Shown here one piece after another: positions 6,094 through 16,177 of a stretch of DNA of 27,260 nucleotides (position 1 is its first letter; each line of letters opens with the position of its first letter). Below the pieces are notes generated by a model, which made no database searches, was not told the DNA's origin, and saw only the letters and a program-made list of their open reading frames with translations. Both the position numbers and the translations under genes were made by a program. The DNA comes from a virus. Location: the IMG/VR virus record IMGVR_UViG_3300044535_000336, positions 1 to 27,260 of that record; one strand, 5' to 3'.

Positions 6094-6312
6094 TTACTTC
6101 AGCTTTGCGGCGTTTGCAATAGCTGAAGCGTTACCTTTTGCGGTACTTCTGGAGTAGCTTTTAGACATCAGTTCTTCCAATTGATCGCATTCACGAAACG
6201 CAGTTTCTAAATCTGCGTCTTTTTCGTAATTGATCGGAAGCGATCTCATTATCTTTGAGTACTTCAGAACATCGTTTAGCTCATTAGGCTGAATGATCTC
6301 GTTGTTATTCAT
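6094..6312 (-). CDS. Small hypothetical protein, 72 aa
   Basis: A 72-residue acidic-to-neutral helical protein beginning MNNNEIIQPNELNDVLKY, with a Ser/Ala-rich end. No domain is recognised. Its ATG lies inside the last codons of the giant gene (8-base overlap), so translation is probably coupled to it. It shares the AT-rich composition of the 3' part of the giant gene, unlike the terminase genes that follow, which hints that the two may have travelled together. Confidence 0.6.
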   Translation of the reverse strand: MNNNEIIQPNELNDVLKYSKIMRSLPINYEKDADLETAFRECDQLEELMSKSYSRSTAKGNASAIANAAKLK

Positions 6313-9300
6313 TGTCTTCTGTTTCTTGGTCTAGGTTTTGTGCCGATTCAGCATAGCCTTCAGATGCGAGTTTTGCAGAAGCTTCCTCAAAACTCAATGG
6401 TTTTTGCTTGTCTGGGAAGAATATTGAGAAAATATCATCAAAGCTAGACTTTTCAGCTCCAACTTTTTGCGTCCAACCCATTTTATCCCAGCGATCTTTT
6501 TCAGCAAACCACAAAACAGCCTGCAGGTCATCCGGGTTCATTTTTAGCTTCTTGGCGGCGCGTTCAAAAATGATTTGACCAATGGCGAAATCTTCATTCG
6601 TTACTGCGCTTTCAGCTTTTGGCTGAATTCTCCAAGGTGTCTTTTTGCCTTCATACAAAACAGCCCTTAAGAACCGCGCAGCCCATACATCAATAGTTGC
6701 CTGCAAAGTTCTGCCAGATAAGTTGCCAGCAAAATTAGGTGTCTTTGGTGCATTCCTATTGTCTAACCATGAACCGTGAATCACCTTGAGTACCGCCAAT
6801 GAATTAGCATTGAATTTCTTTCCATTGCTGCGCTTTGGCAACATGTCTGTTGCTAGAATCATTATTTTTGCTCTCTGCGATGGTTTCCATGATTCTGGTT
6901 TTTGATTGATAAGGCTTTTAAGGTTTTTAGCCTCCTTGAGCAGATTTGATTGATCTTGTCCTTTTAAAGATTTGGCCTTTTCCTCAATGTCATTTATTTT
7001 TGAACTAAGAATATCCAAGTACCCGCGATTGACAATCTCATCGGCTAGCGTCCCGGACTCCTCAAGTTGAAGCATATCAATATATGCTTTACGATTTGGT
7101 TCATATCTTCCTGCGTTGATGCCTTCATATGCATCCATCGCCTGCAAGAAGTTTTCTCTAACTGGTGTTCGTGCGCTTGTAGCACCAAGCAATTGCGAAA
7201 GTGTTTCGCGCCCTTGCTCTCCTAACGCTTTTACTAGTTTGACTCTCATGCGCGAATACCAACCCATGCCAGCGGCAATTTCTGGGTTTTCAAGATATTT
7301 CTTTGTGCGCTTTACTACATCACCAACCACAGCGTCTACTGCTCCAGAATCAATAGCTTGATCAATTTTCTTTTGAGCAGACTTGGGAATGTCATATGCT
7401 AGTTCAGCATAATTTGTCTTTGTTTTATCAGTTGGGTTGTTTTTATCATACTCAACCAATTTTGGCGATTTGAGAAAATTGTATGGTATAATTTGCGGAA
7501 CTGGTTTTCCGTCTTTGAATTTTAGCTCGCCTTTATCGTCAACAGCTTGGATTACTGGCAATGCATCTTTTGTTCCTTTGCTGATTTCTGTTGGCTTCTT
7601 AACAGGCTCAACATCACCCTCTGGCATAAACCGCATCTGACCAGTCTGCGAAATCTTCCTCATCTCTGGGGTGATGTTCACCTTCCAGATTGGAATGCTG
7701 CCAGTCTCCGCTTCCTCACCGCTCATGATGTCGGCTTCCACTGATTGCGTCATGTCTGCCCTCTCGACCTTTCCGCCGAACTGCTTGACATACTTGCCAA
7801 CCTCTTTTGGGAGCATGTTGTCGTAGAAGCCTTTCATGCCGCTTCCGCCAACTTTTAAGTCTAGACCACTATATGATACATCGGACTTTCCATTTAATAC
7901 ACGGAACTCTTCAGCTTTACGCTCATATTCATCAAACAATGGACTATCATACCCTACTCCGGGTTGTTGCAGTTTGTTTCTAGCTTCTTCCGCTGCGATT
8001 TTGGCGCGTTGAATCTGTTGCGGAGTTCCTTTAGGGGACATATCAGAAATCACCTTTTCTGCTAACTCCTTGCCAATTACATCTGGAAGTGCCTCAAGCG
8101 TGCTTTGTTGAGTAATAACATTATTATTGCCCTTTGTCCCGTAAACGGTTACGCGATTGCTACCATCAATTCGGCGGACTTCTATTGAGTCAAGAGACTT
8201 ACTTAAATCAAACCGATCATTCTGCGTCTCTCCAGTCGTCCAGCCAATCCAGTCCTTGCCACCATCCACGGCATCACGCAGTGCGCGTTTGAATAGTTGG
8301 ATGGGCCAAGTAGTGCGGAAGGGTGCGTCTGCTACACCACCAACACCAAGTTCCGATCTCCCTTGGTTGAATGCGTTAATAGCATTTTCTCGGCTAGAAT
8401 AATTAGATGTCAATCTACGACCATCATCGTCTGCTACAATGTAGAAATTCTCGTTGTCTTGTTTAGCTGAGAAGCCTGCCTCCAAATCTCCACGATACCC
8501 CTTCTTCCTCCCCGCCTGATGCCTGTCAGACTGGAACTCCTCCACGAACAAGCCCTCGCTACCATCGTCCAGCGCGCGTTCGTTTGTACGTATGTGGGCA
8601 ACATAGTTGGGGATGTCGGGGAAGTGGGGGGAGGTGTATTCGGATGCTGCCTTTGGATATTTCGCGTAGTAGTCTAATAGTGCGTCATCGCGGCTATTAC
8701 CCACCGCAACGGCTCGACCTTCAGCGTTTCTAAGGAACCATCTCTGATTTCCGTTGTTGGACTTTGCTTCCAAGGTGTGACCATCGGGTACGCCGCCTTG
8801 CGTTGGCATAGCCAGCACCACCTCGCGGTAGTTCTCGCCGCCGGGGAGTTGGTATTGGGCGTATTTGGGTTCTGGTTTTTGTGATTCCTTGGCATCCAAT
8901 TCATCCACCAAACGTCGAAATTCTTCTGAAGTGATTTCACCTCGACCCATTTGCTCTCCAAGTTTTGCTCGTTCAGCTTCGTATGCCTGCCTTCCCTCGC
9001 TGATTGTTACCTCCTCAAACCTAACCCTACCCTCGTTACGAAGGTAGTTAAGCAGATCCTCCTTGGACACCTTGCCGTCCTTCTCCAGACTCGTTAGTGC
9101 CTGCTCTATGCCGCTCCACTTGATCTCGTCTGCCTTGACTCCACTTCCCCGTGTCGGGTCGATGGTGGCCATGATCTGCTGCGCTGTGGCGCGGGTGGGA
9201 ACCTTGTCGGTGATGACACGCTCAAGCTGGGAGTAGAACTTATCCTCGTCCACGCCCTCTGGCATGAAGCGGGAACCTTGGCTTGGAACTGCTTTAGAAA

Positions 9301-12300
9301 TCGGATCACGATACATGGTCTTCCTTGTCGTGTAATCCTTGTTTCTCCCTTTATTTTCAACAAAACCAAGTTTTTTGTACCAATTAGTCAACCTTTGCTT
9401 GTTTGAACCGAACTCATTTGTTGGAGATACAACAATTCTTTTGCCGACTTGATCCGCATAGTCTATGAGAATAGACATTGCCTTGTTCCCAATACCTTGA
9501 TTTCTGTTTTCCTTTGGAACCTTAATTACTCCGGGTTCAATTTCATTGGATCTTTCAGACAAACCATGCTGAATCCCAAGATTATCCCATTGCTTTCTAA
9601 TGTCATCAATGTTTTGAGTCTGCTCACCCTCTGGCATGAATCGGGTGGGAGCAGCTTCCCCTCTAGACTCCTTGCTGTCCAAGAAGCTCATAACGGATGA
9701 AATTGCAGACTCGGTGCTGGCTTCAGAGTCTCCCCTTCCGGCCCATGTGGTGAATTCTTCCTCAAGGTCTCTCTTCGCTTGGTCAACCTTGTTTAGAATG
9801 TCTTGAGGGAAGTATCCAGATGGAGCGTCATTGATGATGAAGTCAAGCTCGTCAATCGCCTCGCGTTCTGTGAGGTTTTCGTCCAACCCATCGCGGATTT
9901 CGCGGAGTCTGGTGAGCGTGACATCACCACCCTGCTCACCCTCTGGCATCGCTCGCTGGGCTTCTGGCATGCGGACTTGGCTCACTGCCTCGTAGCTAAA
10001 CGGCATTGCTGCGTATTCCTCTGGGGCCATTGGGACTGCCTTGCTAACGCGATCTGCGCGGTAGGTGCGGTAGACATTGTCCTTGCTCTTAATGCCATCC
10101 TCCAGAAGCATCGGGTTGAGGACTGCCTGCTCCTTTTGGTTAAGCAGGCCGAACATGGTGTTGATGAACTTCTTGCGCTCATCGGCCTCGACCGCTCCAT
10201 ATTTCTGCTTGAAAAACTCAATGCTGTCCAAGCCTTGCTTGTGGTAGTCCATCATCGCCTGCGTGTCGCGCAGGATCAAATCCACATTACCACCATACAG
10301 CTTCTTGCCACGTCTGTCTTGTGAGCGTTTCTGGATGTTTTCATGAAGCTTGGTTACGGACATAAGCCCGAACAGCAAGTTGCCGTCTTTGGAGATGGTG
10401 ACAGCGACTGGAACCGTGTCGCGTAGAGTAGCACCCTGCGGCTTGTAAACCACCTTCCCAGCCTTGTTGCGGGTAGTAGCAGGGAAGTTGATCATGACCA
10501 CCCGATCACCAGCACCCTTGCGGATTAGCTTGTTCATCTCGCGGATGATACGCTTCTGCTCTGGGTTGTACTTGTTCTTGGCAAACATCTCGGTGAGGAC
10601 ATCGTTGGACAACCATCCAGGCTGGAATTGCCCCTCGTCATCCACATGTGCCTCACCCTTCTCTGGGGCATAGTTCTCTGCCCTCTTCCTCCGCATCACC
10701 TCGACCGCAGTAAGCCCTGCAAGCGCACGCGAAAGCTCTGTAGCCCTATCCAGTGCCACAGGCTTGCCGTCCTTCATGATCGGCTTGTTAGCATCGTCAA
10801 CCTGCACCAGCGGGTGAAGAAGCTCGGCATCAATGCTGTCGGATGGGTTTAGCAGGATCGGCGCACCAGAGTCTGGCTTGTCGCTCATGAGAGGGTCAAA
10901 TTGCCCCGGCACAAGCCCGGCACTGCGCCTGTTCATGTCGCGGAACATCTTGCTGGTGATTGGGTCACGCTTGACTCCCTCTGCGTCTAGGATGCCGTTT
11001 CCAGTCACCCACGCACCATTCTTGTCGATCATCCCGCCGCTCTTGAAGTGGAGGTCTTTGAGGACTGGAATCCTCGGCAGGACGGTCTCAAGGATTGATC
11101 CAAGCTTGCGCCTAGCAGCACCACTGGATGCAACCGCTCCAAGCTCGCCACTTTCCGCCATTGCTGCGTACTGATCAGCGTGCTTCTCGATGAAATACTC
11201 AACCGCAATCTTGTCGAGCGGGTAGATGGCATCTCTCTCGGCGTTGGACATGCCCTCAACCCCAAGACGCTTGTAATAACCATCGCGGAATGCCTCGAAA
11301 TTAGGGTCTAGTTTACCATCCCTAGAACGGAACAATCCACCAACCGTGTTGTTCTTGGTGTCACCTAGGAACAGGGCGGCGATGCCGGGTTCCATGTTGT
11401 TCTTGATGACCGTGTGGTGGAGCGTTTCGTGAGCAACCAGTGCCTTGATCGGGTTGGTTGAATTAACATTGATAACTGCCGTGTTGGTGTTGGGGTCGTA
11501 CCTGCTAGCACCAGAGTCCTTAAAGGTGTAGTTGAGTGTTGGGTTGGCGATGGCGTAAGTTGAAATAGCCCTGCGAGTGCCAGCGGGAATTGCTTCAAAC
11601 AATGCCTTCTGGCGGGTGTCGGTCAAGTTGCGCCTAAAGTTGAGTTCGTCACCAATGGAAAGCTCGCGCATGCGTTTCTTGGTTCCCATGAACGCGCCAC
11701 CACCAGCGGCAAACGATCCTCCAATAACAAACGATTCTGCTCCAGCTTGCCAAAGTGTTTCTGGACGCATGTCAGCACCATCAGACAAGTATTCAAACAT
11801 TAAGTCCGTAGGTGCGGCTGCGGCAATACCACGACCAGCCCTGCGGATTGTGTCAGAGGTTACACCCCCTAGGTCTAGCATGTTGAAGGTGTGTGCAAAC
11901 CCACGACCCAATGAACCGGGTGCGGTGTGTGCCGCCACACGCTTCCAGAATGGAATTTGACCACGCACATTCTCCATCTCTTTGCCGACATAACGGAATA
12001 GCTTTCCATAGTTGGACAGAACCCTGCCAGTCTTGAGTGCTGCCGCCCCTGCGCCAAGTGAACCAATAATTGGATTTCCAGCCAAACCGACAACCCCGGC
12101 CGCGCCAACGGCAGCGGTGTACATTTGATCCAGACCACGCTCTTGCAGGAAGTTTGTGACTGCCGTATCAGTCTTTGAAATAGTGTCACCAACACGCTCC
12201 AAGGTTGCCCCAACTGCCTTTGCTGGCATAGCTCGCATCTGCCTACCAAGCTCCATCGTTTGCAGAACCTTCTGTGAGTAGGCTTCTGGAATTCTGGTAG

Positions 12301-13951
12301 CTAGGCTATTGCGTTTTGTAATCAAGCTATCAAGCTCGGCAGTAATAGTTGGAAGTGTTGATCTAATTTGATTAGCTTCAGCAGTTACCCTGCTTGCTAT
12401 CTGTGATGCCTTTGCCGATCTCTCAAGTAGTGCTGGTTGAGTTTTTGCTCCTTCAGCAAAATTAGCAGCCATACGCTGAGCGAGATTAACTGTCGGTTCA
12501 ACCTTGGCTAATGCTGCTCGACTTGCCTGAACTGCGGTATTTCCTTGAGCAATTGCAAGATCCATTGCGGCAATGTTACCCATTGTTTTCTGGGCATTAA
12601 GCATTGCCCTAGAAGCAAGTGGAACCGCTCTTGATGCCTTTACGGCAAATGCAGCAGGAATGACATTGGTCGGATCACCAGCGATATTCGTAAACGCACC
12701 AACCCTTCCATAAACCTTGTTGAATTCTTCGTTGCCAAGTTCTTGTTTTGCCGCTTCTGCTTTTTGAACTGCATTATCAATCCCCAAAACAGTTTCACCA
12801 ATCTCCCCAGCTTCCATGTCTGCTAGACGCTGGTCGGTCGCCCACTGATTGTAACGAGCCGCAACCAGAGCATCTTTTGAGTTTTTGATGTTGGCGTTAG
12901 CTTGATCAATTTCTTGTGGTTGCGGTCTTTGAATGCCAGTTATTTTCTCTAGCGCACCATAGAATGGCGACATAATCGACTCATCAATAAACTGCTTATC
13001 GGCAGCAAGACCAACATCAATCAAATTGGATGTCTGAATAACATTTTTGTACATGTTTTCAGCTATGGATAACTCCGTAGCTTCTCCACGCGCCTTGAGA
13101 TAGTCTGGTCTAGAATCCTCCATGCCCAGCAATCCACCCCAAGTTCTGGAGTTGTACGCCAGACCCATTGCTTGCTGTTGAGCCAATTCCGCACCACCAT
13201 AAACGGCATCTCCAGCAAACTTTGTAACATTGCTAAGAATTTCACCCGGCGTGGAACTGGATCGGATAACTCCATCCTCCCACAGAATGTCAAATTTCTC
13301 TTTGCTTCCGGGTTGCGTGAACCACTCTGGGTTTTTCATCTCCTCAATTGGAGTAAGATACGCCTGACCCTTTTCGTTGATGGTTCCGTCCTCGTTGAAC
13401 ATTCCAGACTGCTGGAGGTTGTAAAACAACTGACCTCTTTCGGTTGGATTCCCATCTTGATCGACCAACCCTAATGCACGCACGCTATTTGCGTTTAGCG
13501 GTTTAGAAAAAACTTCCAGTGGTGATTTTGCGATTTCGCCAGCATCGTTTCGTAGCGAATCAACCTCCGCTCCCACAACATCCGTTATGGCTTGCTCGTA
13601 TGGTGTGATGGACACCATATCCCTGTCAAATTGCGCTTCCGCTTGGTTGCGAAAGTTTGACAGAACTTGAGGCTGCTCCTGCGGAATAACCATGCTATCC
13701 CTCGCTGGCATCTCGGTGAGACTACCAACTTCCGGGACTGGCTGAGGCTCGTAAACATACTGCTCCAGTGGAGTCAGGTCACGGGCGATGGGAGATTGAA
13801 CAGGCTGGTTGTACGCCTCAACCAGAGTCTGCGGCTGAAGAACCTCTAGTTGCCCAAGGGTTCTTTGGACATCCTTTGCAAACAAATTAAGTCCGCTTTG
13901 GACTTTTTTGTTAAATTCGGGCTGTTCTTCTTTGGGTACATTGAATGCCAT
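6305..13951 (-). CDS. Giant internal-virion-type polyvalent protein (HExxH, GNAT, MPEG separators)
   Basis: A 2,548-residue multidomain protein without frameshift. Residues 1 to about 600 are long Ala/Gln-rich helices. Gly/Ala-rich hydrophobic segments at about 610-640 and 738-755 could insert in membranes, as in podovirus ejection proteins. An HETLHH zinc-metallopeptidase motif lies at 841-846. A module near 1085-1300 contains LHENIQKRSQDRRGKKLYGG. A GNAT acetyltransferase-like domain has RNQGIGNKAM at 1483-1492. A module near 1700-2070 contains LPGGENYREV, WTTGETQNDRFDLSK and GMKGFYDNMLP. A C-terminal module near 2180-2500 contains GATSARTPVRENF and DVWAARFLR. The motif MPEG, usually as RFMPEG, recurs at 1335, 1439, 1563 and 2109 between modules. 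Such polyvalent proteins are typically injected with the DNA and act in the host. Individual activities are inferred from motifs. Confidence 0.85.
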   Translation of the reverse strand: MAFNVPKEEQPEFNKKVQSGLNLFAKDVQRTLGQLEVLQPQTLVEAYNQPVQSPIARDLTPLEQYVYEPQPVPEVGSLTEMPARDSMVIPQEQPQVLSNFRNQAEAQFDRDMVSITPYEQAITDVVGAEVDSLRNDAGEIAKSPLEVFSKPLNANSVRALGLVDQDGNPTERGQLFYNLQQSGMFNEDGTINEKGQAYLTPIEEMKNPEWFTQPGSKEKFDILWEDGVIRSSSTPGEILSNVTKFAGDAVYGGAELAQQQAMGLAYNSRTWGGLLGMEDSRPDYLKARGEATELSIAENMYKNVIQTSNLIDVGLAADKQFIDESIMSPFYGALEKITGIQRPQPQEIDQANANIKNSKDALVAARYNQWATDQRLADMEAGEIGETVLGIDNAVQKAEAAKQELGNEEFNKVYGRVGAFTNIAGDPTNVIPAAFAVKASRAVPLASRAMLNAQKTMGNIAAMDLAIAQGNTAVQASRAALAKVEPTVNLAQRMAANFAEGAKTQPALLERSAKASQIASRVTAEANQIRSTLPTITAELDSLITKRNSLATRIPEAYSQKVLQTMELGRQMRAMPAKAVGATLERVGDTISKTDTAVTNFLQERGLDQMYTAAVGAAGVVGLAGNPIIGSLGAGAAALKTGRVLSNYGKLFRYVGKEMENVRGQIPFWKRVAAHTAPGSLGRGFAHTFNMLDLGGVTSDTIRRAGRGIAAAAPTDLMFEYLSDGADMRPETLWQAGAESFVIGGSFAAGGGAFMGTKKRMRELSIGDELNFRRNLTDTRQKALFEAIPAGTRRAISTYAIANPTLNYTFKDSGASRYDPNTNTAVINVNSTNPIKALVAHETLHHTVIKNNMEPGIAALFLGDTKNNTVGGLFRSRDGKLDPNFEAFRDGYYKRLGVEGMSNAERDAIYPLDKIAVEYFIEKHADQYAAMAESGELGAVASSGAARRKLGSILETVLPRIPVLKDLHFKSGGMIDKNGAWVTGNGILDAEGVKRDPITSKMFRDMNRRSAGLVPGQFDPLMSDKPDSGAPILLNPSDSIDAELLHPLVQVDDANKPIMKDGKPVALDRATELSRALAGLTAVEVMRRKRAENYAPEKGEAHVDDEGQFQPGWLSNDVLTEMFAKNKYNPEQKRIIREMNKLIRKGAGDRVVMINFPATTRNKAGKVVYKPQGATLRDTVPVAVTISKDGNLLFGLMSVTKLHENIQKRSQDRRGKKLYGGNVDLILRDTQAMMDYHKQGLDSIEFFKQKYGAVEADERKKFINTMFGLLNQKEQAVLNPMLLEDGIKSKDNVYRTYRADRVSKAVPMAPEEYAAMPFSYEAVSQVRMPEAQRAMPEGEQGGDVTLTRLREIRDGLDENLTEREAIDELDFIINDAPSGYFPQDILNKVDQAKRDLEEEFTTWAGRGDSEASTESAISSVMSFLDSKESRGEAAPTRFMPEGEQTQNIDDIRKQWDNLGIQHGLSERSNEIEPGVIKVPKENRNQGIGNKAMSILIDYADQVGKRIVVSPTNEFGSNKQRLTNWYKKLGFVENKGRNKDYTTRKTMYRDPISKAVPSQGSRFMPEGVDEDKFYSQLERVITDKVPTRATAQQIMATIDPTRGSGVKADEIKWSGIEQALTSLEKDGKVSKEDLLNYLRNEGRVRFEEVTISEGRQAYEAERAKLGEQMGRGEITSEEFRRLVDELDAKESQKPEPKYAQYQLPGGENYREVVLAMPTQGGVPDGHTLEAKSNNGNQRWFLRNAEGRAVAVGNSRDDALLDYYAKYPKAASEYTSPHFPDIPNYVAHIRTNERALDDGSEGLFVEEFQSDRHQAGRKKGYRGDLEAGFSAKQDNENFYIVADDDGRRLTSNYSSRENAINAFNQGRSELGVGGVADAPFRTTWPIQLFKRALRDAVDGGKDWIGWTTGETQNDRFDLSKSLDSIEVRRIDGSNRVTVYGTKGNNNVITQQSTLEALPDVIGKELAEKVISDMSPKGTPQQIQRAKIAAEEARNKLQQPGVGYDSPLFDEYERKAEEFRVLNGKSDVSYSGLDLKVGGSGMKGFYDNMLPKEVGKYVKQFGGKVERADMTQSVEADIMSGEEAETGSIPIWKVNITPEMRKISQTGQMRFMPEGDVEPVKKPTEISKGTKDALPVIQAVDDKGELKFKDGKPVPQIIPYNFLKSPKLVEYDKNNPTDKTKTNYAELAYDIPKSAQKKIDQAIDSGAVDAVVGDVVKRTKKYLENPEIAAGMGWYSRMRVKLVKALGEQGRETLSQLLGATSARTPVRENFLQAMDAYEGINAGRYEPNRKAYIDMLQLEESGTLADEIVNRGYLDILSSKINDIEEKAKSLKGQDQSNLLKEAKNLKSLINQKPESWKPSQRAKIMILATDMLPKRSNGKKFNANSLAVLKVIHGSWLDNRNAPKTPNFAGNLSGRTLQATIDVWAARFLRAVLYEGKKTPWRIQPKAESAVTNEDFAIGQIIFERAAKKLKMNPDDLQAVLWFAEKDRWDKMGWTQKVGAEKSSFDDIFSIFFPDKQKPLSFEEASAKLASEGYAESAQNLDQETEDNE

Positions 13952-13969: not shown

Positions 13970-14875
13970 TTATTTAAATTTATTGAAGAACGAATTGATT
14001 CCGCTTACTGTCTCTTCTGGTTTTTCTTCAGGTGTCTTTAGCTCAGTGTCAATTTGAACATCTGCACCAGTTGATTTTTTATACTGATTGATCCTTTCGA
14101 CAATATCCGACCTAAAAGATTTTGCTGCAGCCAATGCTGTATCATTTCTAGTGCCAGCTCCGAGTGGAATTAAATACTTCTGTGCTGCGGCAACCTCACC
14201 CTCTCTCGCCACGGAGCTTGGGTCAACAGTCTTTGCGTATGCAATTGCCATTTGATATGGAAGCTGTCCAAGTTTTGCAGATCCTTCTGGGGATGCAATT
14301 TCAAATGTTCCATATTGCTTGATTGCGTCAGTCAATTGATCTGTAAATCGCAATGCTGCAGATGCGTTCTGCTCGAATGTAACATCTGCTTGGGTTTTCT
14401 TTGGCGTTTTGTCTTCTTCCTTTTTCTCAAGAATAGGAAGCGATGATTTAGCAATTTCCCTAGCCTTGTCTGGGTCTACTTGAGCAAGTGCTGTAATTGA
14501 CTGCACTAGAGATGGATCAAATTGATTCCCACTTTCAGCAGATTTTTTGGCAAGTTGATTTAATTCAGCAATAGTCGCAGCGGTGGTAGCTTCCTTTTTA
14601 GCTGTGTCCGCTACTGTGGTGTCTTGTGGTCTGGTTGCGCCTTCACCCTTAATGTTTGATCCGTAAAATTTAGCAATTTCCTCAAAATCATTGCCCATTG
14701 TTTCAAAAGCTTTGTTTTGAATCTTGCCCATCAATCCCTGCTCGAAAACATCTGCTTCCGCATTAAATCCTCTAGCCCTTAATAGTGCGATGCGTTGTTG
14801 GGCATTTCCAATTTTCTCTTTAGCTTTTGGCCCAGCATTTGGGACAACCTGTGTAAATGTTTCAAGAAGATTCAT
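13970..14875 (-). CDS. Probable internal virion (ejection) protein, 301 aa
   Basis: A 301-residue protein rich in Ala, Lys, Glu and Gln, predicted to be almost wholly helical with coiled-coil-like stretches (KKEATTAATIAELNQLAKKS) and a charged linker EKKEEDKTPKK near the middle. No enzyme motif is visible. Composition and position between another Gln-rich protein and the giant polyvalent gene suggest a virion core or ejection protein. The start at 14875 (MNLLETF) lies two bases after the upstream stop and is preferred; an upstream TTG at 14887 would overlap the previous gene. Confidence 0.65.
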   Translation of the reverse strand: MNLLETFTQVVPNAGPKAKEKIGNAQQRIALLRARGFNAEADVFEQGLMGKIQNKAFETMGNDFEEIAKFYGSNIKGEGATRPQDTTVADTAKKEATTAATIAELNQLAKKSAESGNQFDPSLVQSITALAQVDPDKAREIAKSSLPILEKKEEDKTPKKTQADVTFEQNASAALRFTDQLTDAIKQYGTFEIASPEGSAKLGQLPYQMAIAYAKTVDPSSVAREGEVAAAQKYLIPLGAGTRNDTALAAAKSFRSDIVERINQYKKSTGADVQIDTELKTPEEKPEETVSGINSFFNKFK

Positions 14876-14877
14876 AA

Positions 14878-15366
14878 TTATTCCCAAGGGTTAAATCCTC
14901 CGTTGCTAGATGCGGCAGGTTTTGCTCCGCCACCACCGCCGCCACTTTGCGATGCGGCAAACTTTTGCTGGCGAAGGTTCATCATTGCGTTTTGGTTAAT
15001 TAGACTTTGTACCTCAAAACCAGTTTTCATCGTGCTAAACAGCGATTCAGCAGCGGAGATGCGCTGAGACAATGGTATCTCTTGGTCGTCAAGAGTAGCT
15101 TTAAGTTGTCCAATTCCTGGGACTAAGTCTGGTGCTTTAGCTTCAAGCAATCCAGCAATACGGCTTGCTGTATCAACAGACTTAGCCTTTTCCTTTTGTT
15201 GCTTGTAGTAATCTCCAACTTGAGTTATCCCTTGTGCAATCCCTTGCCCAAGGTTCTGCATCCCTTGTGCTTGGATCTCCGCAGCCCTTGTGAAGCCAGA
15301 GTAATCCTGCACAAACATCCGTGGGTCTACACCCGCTCCTAGCATCTGTCCTTGTCCGTATGGCAT
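14878..15366 (-). CDS. Probable internal virion (ejection) protein, 162 aa
   Basis: A 162-residue Gln/Gly/Ala-rich protein. It has a helical part (IQAQGMQNLGQGIAQGITQVGDYYKQQKEKA) typical of podovirus internal core or ejection proteins, then a second helical part, and a C-terminal low-complexity tail with a run of six glycines ending in NPWE. No catalytic motif is seen. It is placed between the PAPS-reductase-like gene and a second ejection-like gene. Start is at the ATG five bases after the upstream gene; no ribosome binding site is visible. Function is inferred from composition and context only. Confidence 0.65.
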   Translation of the reverse strand: MPYGQGQMLGAGVDPRMFVQDYSGFTRAAEIQAQGMQNLGQGIAQGITQVGDYYKQQKEKAKSVDTASRIAGLLEAKAPDLVPGIGQLKATLDDQEIPLSQRISAAESLFSTMKTGFEVQSLINQNAMMNLRQQKFAASQSGGGGGGAKPAASSNGGFNPWE

Positions 15367-15370
15367 ATTA

Positions 15371-16177
15371 TTAGTCTTTCATGAAAGATGGAATACTTTG
15401 GTCAAACCACAGTACTCGTTGTGAAATGTTTTCAATTGTGCAGTCCAGCTTTGGGCAATGCACAAATTTAGGGGCCGACTTTCTACGGTCAATACAAGCA
15501 GTACAAGCATGAACATAGTCACAATTGTGTGTTCGGTCAACCTTCTCTGACCACTTGCCATTTACCTTTTCATATCGGCTAGTTTGAATTGGCACATTGT
15601 TTTCCTCACAGTATTGGAACACATCATCGTGCGTCCAATTTTTCATTGGGTAGAAGGCATTGCACTGTCCGGGGTTAATACGCACATCTACGCGCACTCC
15701 AGCATCCCCACCGTAGATTGGGTCAGAGTCGCAGAGTTTGTGGCCAACCAGCATCCCATCCCATCCTGCGATAATGCCGGGGTTTTTTGGGCGGTTGTAA
15801 ATATCCATAGCGCACACCCACGGTTTGTCTTCCTCAATTGGAGTAATGCCAGTAGGGCAAGTCATGTCAGTGTTGTCAAAGATATACTTGTTCTGCACCT
15901 CAAACTCGTCGTCAGTTTGCTGGAATGAAGAGAATGTTGGATGCCATGTATAGACCTCAAGACCCCATTCCTCAATTATGCGATTCTGAAATGCATATTT
16001 GCTTGGTTGCCATTGTTCGCGGTAGAATACAACTGGAACCTTTACCCCAACTTTTTTGAACACAAGGTCAAGAAGTGCCATGCTATCTTTTCCACCGCTC
16101 CAAGCAAGGCACGGTTTCTTAGAGACACTTAGGCATGTCTCGATATTCTTAATGGCTGATTGTACTTTGTTAAACAT
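15371..16177 (-). CDS. PAPS-reductase-like PP-loop enzyme with C-terminal cysteine cluster
   Basis: A 268-residue member of the phosphoadenosine phosphosulfate reductase/PP-loop ATPase superfamily. The PP-loop SGGKDS is at 27-32, after CLAW. These enzymes activate a substrate with a nucleotide, either reducing PAPS or, in the relatives DndC and the tRNA thiolases, transferring sulfur. The C-terminal part has cysteines at 219, 225, 228, 241 and 246 (C-x5-C-x2-C-x12-C-x4-C), suggesting an iron-sulfur or zinc site. It does not carry the classical C-terminal ECGLH motif of assimilatory reductases. It lies inside the virion operon with a TAATG overlap to the upstream ejection-like gene, an odd place for an enzyme. 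Substrate unknown. Confidence 0.88.
   Translation of the reverse strand: MFNKVQSAIKNIETCLSVSKKPCLAWSGGKDSMALLDLVFKKVGVKVPVVFYREQWQPSKYAFQNRIIEEWGLEVYTWHPTFSSFQQTDDEFEVQNKYIFDNTDMTCPTGITPIEEDKPWVCAMDIYNRPKNPGIIAGWDGMLVGHKLCDSDPIYGGDAGVRVDVRINPGQCNAFYPMKNWTHDDVFQYCEENNVPIQTSRYEKVNGKWSEKVDRTHNCDYVHACTACIDRRKSAPKFVHCPKLDCTIENISQRVLWFDQSIPSFMKD

Follow-up and report, generated by a model that had tools for sequence, protein, structure and literature searches.

Short peptide words at the module ends of a giant phage polyvalent protein as putative processing sites

The 27,260-bp IMG/VR virus record analyzed here (referred to below as the window) raises the question of why a giant phage protein repeats the same short peptide between its parts. 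According to the ORF list and its translation, the gene lies on the minus strand (6305..13951) and encodes 2,548 amino acids, with the tetrapeptide MPEG at residues 1335, 1439, 1563, and 2109, exactly the positions reported in the first-pass annotation; its description of the copies as mostly RFMPEG fits three of the four, the first being RAMPEG. Only 0.02 copies of MPEG are expected from composition (Poisson P(≥4) about 7e-9), and it is the commonest tetrapeptide of the protein. The repeat had been read as a processing site, a recombination hotspot, or a linker at module borders. Comparison of sequences suggests that such words are functional cut or recognition sites and not filler.

Composition and surroundings of the giant protein

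The protein belongs to the phage polyvalent proteins, as it combines several conflict-type domains in one chain (GNAT and DUF7178 in the window), and the modules of its relatives match ART-PolyVal, methyltransferase, and, weakly, ParB domains. Passages of Iyer et al. (2017; PMC5512222) describe giant phage proteins that combine ART, GNAT, methyltransferase, ParB-type, and HEXXH peptidase-like modules, and the window protein resembles these in carrying several effector-type modules. Its N-terminal part (residues 1-1337, 9941..13951, minus strand, as are all features below) is constant and common to all close relatives; homology blocks stop at residues 1337-1340, and the series of modules starts where this part ends. 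Within it, an HEXXH motif (HETLH, residues 841-845, 11417..11431) marks a candidate zincin-like peptidase, for which Glu918 in IAVEYF (11198..11200), invariant in the alignment, is the candidate third zinc ligand.

The first junction, or seam, is double (VRMPEAQRAMPEG): MPEG at residues 1335-1338 (9938..9949), in the context QRAMPEG, is preceded by RMPE at residues 1327-1330 (9962..9973), the MPE of which, at residue 1328, is a fifth copy that the first-pass annotation had overlooked. It is followed by module m04 (residues 1338-1441, 9629..9940), a helical unit of 104 amino acids that recurs in relatives in other contexts. Between the second seam (RFMPEG, residues 1437-1442, 9626..9643) and the third (RFMPEG, residues 1561-1566, 9254..9271) lies module m10 (residues 1442-1565, 9257..9628), which resembles GNAT acetyltransferases (PHROG 10691, E 2e-21); GNAT folds also head its Foldseek list of PDB structures with probabilities of up to 0.99-1.00, but with E values of about 0.1. 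Module Y (residues 1566-2111, 546 amino acids, 7619..9256) is widespread in phage giant proteins: 171 relatives were confirmed in viral contigs, and 80 of these were kept. It contains the strongly conserved stretches EEFQSDRHQAGRKKGY and WTTGETQNDRFDLSK, and its core is modeled largely with confidence by AlphaFold2; searches returned no significant Pfam counterpart and no PDB fold match. The fourth seam (RFMPEG, residues 2107-2112, 7616..7633) opens the terminal module m07 (residues 2112-2548, 6305..7618), which matches DUF7178 at residues 2397-2485 (Pfam PF23802, E 1.5e-6) and shares 96-98% identity with its counterparts in relatives that are 58-78% identical elsewhere. DUF7178 occurs in three or more terminal modules that otherwise differ, among them m07 (window 6305-7618), m09 (L054:9486-10328), and m17 (L039:7386-8765), and this recurrence suggests a common C-terminal function.

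The giant gene lies directly upstream of the genes for the small and large terminase subunits. A small ORF of 72 amino acids (6094..6312) ends in GNASAIANAAKLK (about 6097-6135), and in many relatives this stretch and its stop codon end whichever ORF precedes the small terminase gene. Many terminal modules of different kinds close with this tail, which ends 10-12 nt ahead of that gene's start. The fixed stretch thus forms the right-hand limit of the variable region, and unrelated terminal modules share one C-terminal tail because of it. The tail IANAAKLK was also considered as a packaging tag; its position in a constant sequence immediately ahead of the gene for the small terminase subunit explains it better.

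The neighbor before the giant gene (relative L084) has a match to PHROG 2534, annotated as "released from the phage upon host infection"; the match was seen in a related 40-kb contig, which looks near-complete because its giant gene runs off both contig ends. The position beside ejection/lysis-type and terminase genes is only suggestive of a virion protein that may be delivered into the host. Before the giant gene, relatives carry a single ORF of 639-677 amino acids, which in L084 has PHROG matches of the lysis/ejection type; at the corresponding place in the window (13970-15366), a 162-residue ORF alone matches the N-terminal part of that ORF, and the adjoining 301-residue ORF has no match to the relatives that carry it. 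A gene resembling phosphoadenosine-phosphosulfate reductase (PHROG 424) is found at 15371-16177, among the structural genes of the window.

The word at module borders and the exchange of modules

A search of viral contigs identified 71 relatives of the giant protein, and in 47 non-redundant ones the word generalizes to R[FYL][ML]PE. It occurs 84 times in 85,538 amino acids of giant proteins and not once in 158,359 amino acids of other ORFs of the same loci (stop-to-stop ORFs, in part not real proteins); it is absent from the capsid protein and from every other protein of these phages. The residues around the word vary, and Arg and MPE are kept. About a fifth of the seams continue with Pro (PVEK, PVPV, PLPA), and in diverged relatives Glu is replaced by Gln, Lys, or Asp (RYVPQ, RFMPK, RFMPD), so that the firmer core of the word is Arg-hydrophobic-hydrophobic-Pro. 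The view that the word sits in linkers between modules is borne out: the GNAT module fills precisely the interval from the seam at 1439 to that at 1563, and all four MPEG sites have AlphaFold2 pLDDT values below 50, none of the window's own copies lying inside a folded domain. Nearly every non-terminal module ends in R[FYL][ML]PE, in a linker predicted to be unfolded.

The word also coincides with the limits of homology. Matches to the window often halt at residue 1337/1338 or 2111, even with 96% identity before the halt, and some restart at residues 2102-2106, now at 96-98% identity, in contigs that are 58-78% identical in the N-terminal part. When block edges were defined as the limits of 6-mers shared with the window, with no part played by the motif in placing them, 56 of the 92 edges beyond residue 1300 fell within 10 amino acids of a window seam, where 6.7% would be expected; the remaining edges mostly represent variable stretches within the constant part and module Y. 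Because related proteins contribute edges that depend in part on one another, the nominal binomial P (9e-42) overstates the significance, though the effect is plain. When the 47 non-redundant relatives are cut at the word, they resolve into a single constant part plus about 28 modules; among 30 complete proteins there are 27 different module orders, module m02 (70 amino acids) being followed by 11 different modules and module Y by nine. In this comparison of homologous giant proteins, of the kind that the first-pass annotation had proposed, homology blocks begin and end at the seams, and modules are exchanged there. Judged from sequence, these comparisons show that the phages swap modules exactly at the word.

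At the DNA level, junctions were compared in pairs. Where two junctions have only the upstream module in common, their bases agree as far as the MPE codons and from there on resemble unrelated pairs; pairs that share only the downstream module display the reverse pattern, and the switch in identity is confined to about nine bases. In the window lineage the similarity of these bases (ATGCCAGAG) exceeds what the peptide calls for, and the codons for Arg and Phe/Tyr/Leu vary. In particular, the Pro codon is CCA in 83% of the words versus 55% in general, and its third base is identical in 0.71 of unrelated pairs, when about 0.37 is expected from codon usage. Short DNA homology may therefore have aided the exchanges. 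Two other uses of the word were considered and dropped. Translation starting internally, at the Met of MPE, is disfavored, as an upstream stretch resembling a Shine-Dalgarno (SD) sequence is present at only three of 75 sites (the SD control itself being weak, with 14 of 117 ORF starts) and Leu (CTG/TTG) replaces Met in some copies. A DNA site used elsewhere is also disfavored, as the 9-mer ATGCC[AT]GA[GA] is only sporadic outside the giant gene.

Words of other giant proteins

In other giant proteins, module Y ends in the same GQ-x-x-F frame, and the letters after Phe/Tyr differ: FDD in L149, FSSAS in L160, FAKAR in L069, FSIG in L157, YQV in L187, FQQ in L193, and FMPAE in L177. A protein's own word recurs at its other module ends, with FDD found 13 times in L149 (0.75 expected), LFSS six times in L160, and [LM]FAK six times in L069. 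These are very large proteins of uncultivated phages (a 3,527-residue ORF in L149, 6,287 amino acids with LFSSAS in L160, and 6,895 amino acids with LFAKAR in L069). Across 39 independent proteins that carry module Y, 74 further copies of the protein's own Y-end trimer were counted versus about 15 expected. With the end of the ART module as an unrelated anchor, 91 independent proteins gave 84 extra copies versus 27 expected; when MP/LP words were set aside, 63 remained versus 26.8 ± 5.4 (maximum of 45 in 500 permutations). The exact trimer has no extra copy in nine of the 39 proteins with the Y anchor and in 45 of the 91 with the ART anchor; one word per protein thus appears as a tendency and not as a law. 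In a small test, the Y and ART words within one protein were the same in 8 of 16 cases versus 13% between proteins. No clear single repeated word was found in the distant giants of Parlo, Skulduggery, and ZX1 (Parlo has RYSV three times), and the giant protein of phage C75C1, the terminase of which is 44% identical, contains neither such words nor HEXXH.

For the three proteins richest in copies, the codons of these words were compared. The fraction of identical codons among copies was 0.30 for LFSS (0.38 expected), 0.42 for FDD (0.52), and 0.36 for FAK (0.38); LFSS, for instance, is written TTG TTT TCA TCC, CTT TTC AGT TCC, and in other ways. In the pooled ART-anchored set, codon identity was somewhat higher than expected (0.57 versus 0.43), as it would be if some modules are recent duplicates. 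By the evidence of its codons, at least several giants keep the word as a peptide, and a scar left by recombination is insufficient by itself to account for it, since the codons of the copies vary as usage predicts. The suggestion of a recombination hotspot is therefore upheld insofar as modules are exchanged at the seams, and falls short as the whole story, because several unrelated giants keep the peptide and its codons vary.

Putative processing, its alternatives, and known systems

The best-supported functional reading is that the word is a putative processing site. In the model we prefer, to which we give about an even chance, the modular polyvalent protein carries the word as a peptide recognition site, most likely for cleavage, as predicted from sequence. 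The full-length chain would be cut at the words into separate effectors, either around packaging or after entry. A single protease reading every junction would keep the words uniform, and an incoming module would be retained only if it ended in, or evolved, the local word. The location in linkers, the position at module ends, and the tendency to uniformity within a protein and difference between phages would fit a recognition word that has a single reader in each phage, for which a protease would be the simplest candidate. Evidence consistent with cleavage includes the restriction of the word to giant proteins, the block edges at the seams, the shuffled module orders, the low pLDDT of the sites, the tendency to one word per protein, and conservation at the peptide level. 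There is also precedent: P1 DdrB is processed, and embedded peptidases have been proposed for the polyvalent class in passages of PMC5512222.

The best candidate for the protease would be the zincin-like HEXXH domain of the constant part. Its HEXXH is invariant in 29 of 29 constant parts, one of them only about 25% identical, and H841, E842, H845, and E918 are all invariant, which is the combination of HEXXH and a downstream Glu that is characteristic of zincin-like metallopeptidases; the constant part thus carries the signature of such a peptidase, as a candidate only. The zincin-like peptidase is listed by Iyer et al. 2017 (PMC5512222) as the commonest domain of polyvalent proteins; its elements are a helix, a three-stranded sheet, the HEXXH helix, and a second helix. 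The AlphaFold2 model of the constant part places strands at positions 168-172, 178-180, and 185-189 before a helix (197-211) containing HEXXH, with pLDDT of about 58-76 there and a mean of 58 overall; the constant part has no PDB fold match, and the HEXXH region no sequence match in the PDB. HEXXH is present in each of the 12 complete giants that have two or more extra copies of the word, and the association is not significant (12/25 versus 0/3, p = 0.24), the comparison group being tiny.

Several observations weigh against cleavage, or against a cut directly after Glu. Pro is a poor P1' residue, yet it follows about a fifth of the seams, and Glu is lost in diverged relatives; the scissile bond may therefore lie elsewhere. 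The excess similarity of the word's DNA in the window lineage and of the codons in the ART pool goes beyond what a peptide signal needs, HEXXH and repeated words are not significantly associated, and the model of the constant part is of low to moderate confidence and has no PDB match. Moreover, for the similar giant N4 vRNAP, packaging in unprocessed form has been reported (PMC5512222). One alternative is a docking role, in which the word would be a short linear motif that occurs several times along the chain and is bound by one phage partner (in packaging, ejection, or as a chaperone). One partner per phage would likewise yield one word per protein, peptide-level and protein-specific uniformity fits equally well, a Pro after Glu is no obstacle, and the word lies in exposed linkers; nevertheless, placement at module ends is more natural for cutting, and no partner candidate emerged, so that we consider docking rather unlikely. 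Another alternative is a purely structural seam, i.e., a coding stretch conserved for in-frame recombination that yields a neutral flexible linker with no post-translational function. Exchange exactly at the word and the over-similar nine bases of the window lineage speak for it, as does the constant right-hand limit of the variable region next to the terminase genes. However, unrelated giants write the same words in different codons, which implies that the words were not copied as DNA or were kept as peptide long after, and within the window family the Arg and Phe/Tyr/Leu codons vary; we therefore regard this explanation as improbable.

Cleavage in trans, by a phage prohead protease of the T4 or SPN3US type or by a host protease, is the least probable alternative, and we hold it to be very unlikely. 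Prohead proteases of these types cleave behind hydrophobic-x-Glu or Ala-x-Glu, and [ML]-P-E resembles the (I/L)-x-E sites of the T4 type. Cleavage after A-x-E by SPN3US gp245 and of DarA by P1 Pro (PMC10052503, PMC12810830) would also favor this route. Against it, neither prohead protease family (PF04586 or PF03420, T4 gp21) was found in the searched contigs, mostly fragments with one near-complete; the word is present in no other protein of these phages; and words that differ between phages suit a phage-encoded reader better than a host protease.

A broader and more tentative proposal is that polyvalent proteins may be true polyproteins, each with its own junction word and its own embedded, co-evolving protease, the word serving as a passport for moving modules. 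Polyvalent proteins have been called polyprotein-like since 2017, without known junction sites; the module-end word would supply exact, testable processing sites, a simple means of finding module borders in many unannotated giant phage proteins, and a rule for the movement of modules, many of them likely anti-defense effectors, between phages. The polyprotein analogy is already published (in passages of Iyer et al. 2017, PMC5512222, polyvalent proteins are likened to polyproteins and embedded peptidases are proposed to release domains), and no description of the seam words was found in the literature searched. A term search of that paper returned no module-end peptide word, no exchange at one, and no case of one word per protein, and the open-access literature, to which the search was mostly confined, gave no account of module-end words or of one word per protein.

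Among known systems, P1 DarA and DdrB are ejected antirestriction proteins that are proteolytically processed, DdrB with a zincin-like domain (according to the relevant passages of PMC5512222 and PMC12810830). The window protein carries a candidate for such a domain in its HEXXH region. DarA and DdrB undergo single processing events, and DarA is cut by the prohead protease Pro, whereas neither of the two prohead protease families searched for was found in the contigs here. For the substrates of SPN3US gp245 and T4 gp21, which are ejected head proteins, the likeness lies in the short word with Glu at its end at which they are cut; there a trans-acting protease serves many head proteins, whereas in the window family only the giant protein bears the word. 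The "PLxRFG" giants of Klebsiella phage ZX1 and Serratia phage Parlo have a GNAT-type module in common with the window. PLxRFG was also considered as the same motif and rejected: NCBIfam NF032893 is a 680-residue C-terminal domain, not a repeated short separator, with strong matches in ZX1 and Parlo, and a search of the window protein with it returned no match. Eukaryotic RNA virus polyproteins differ in their unrelated domains and type of protease, while in the phage proteins modules are freely reshuffled and cleavage is putative; the two are alike in combining several functions in one chain, one junction word, and a candidate protease within the same chain, and the repeated junction word at module borders that characterizes autoprocessed polyproteins is present in the giant protein of the window.
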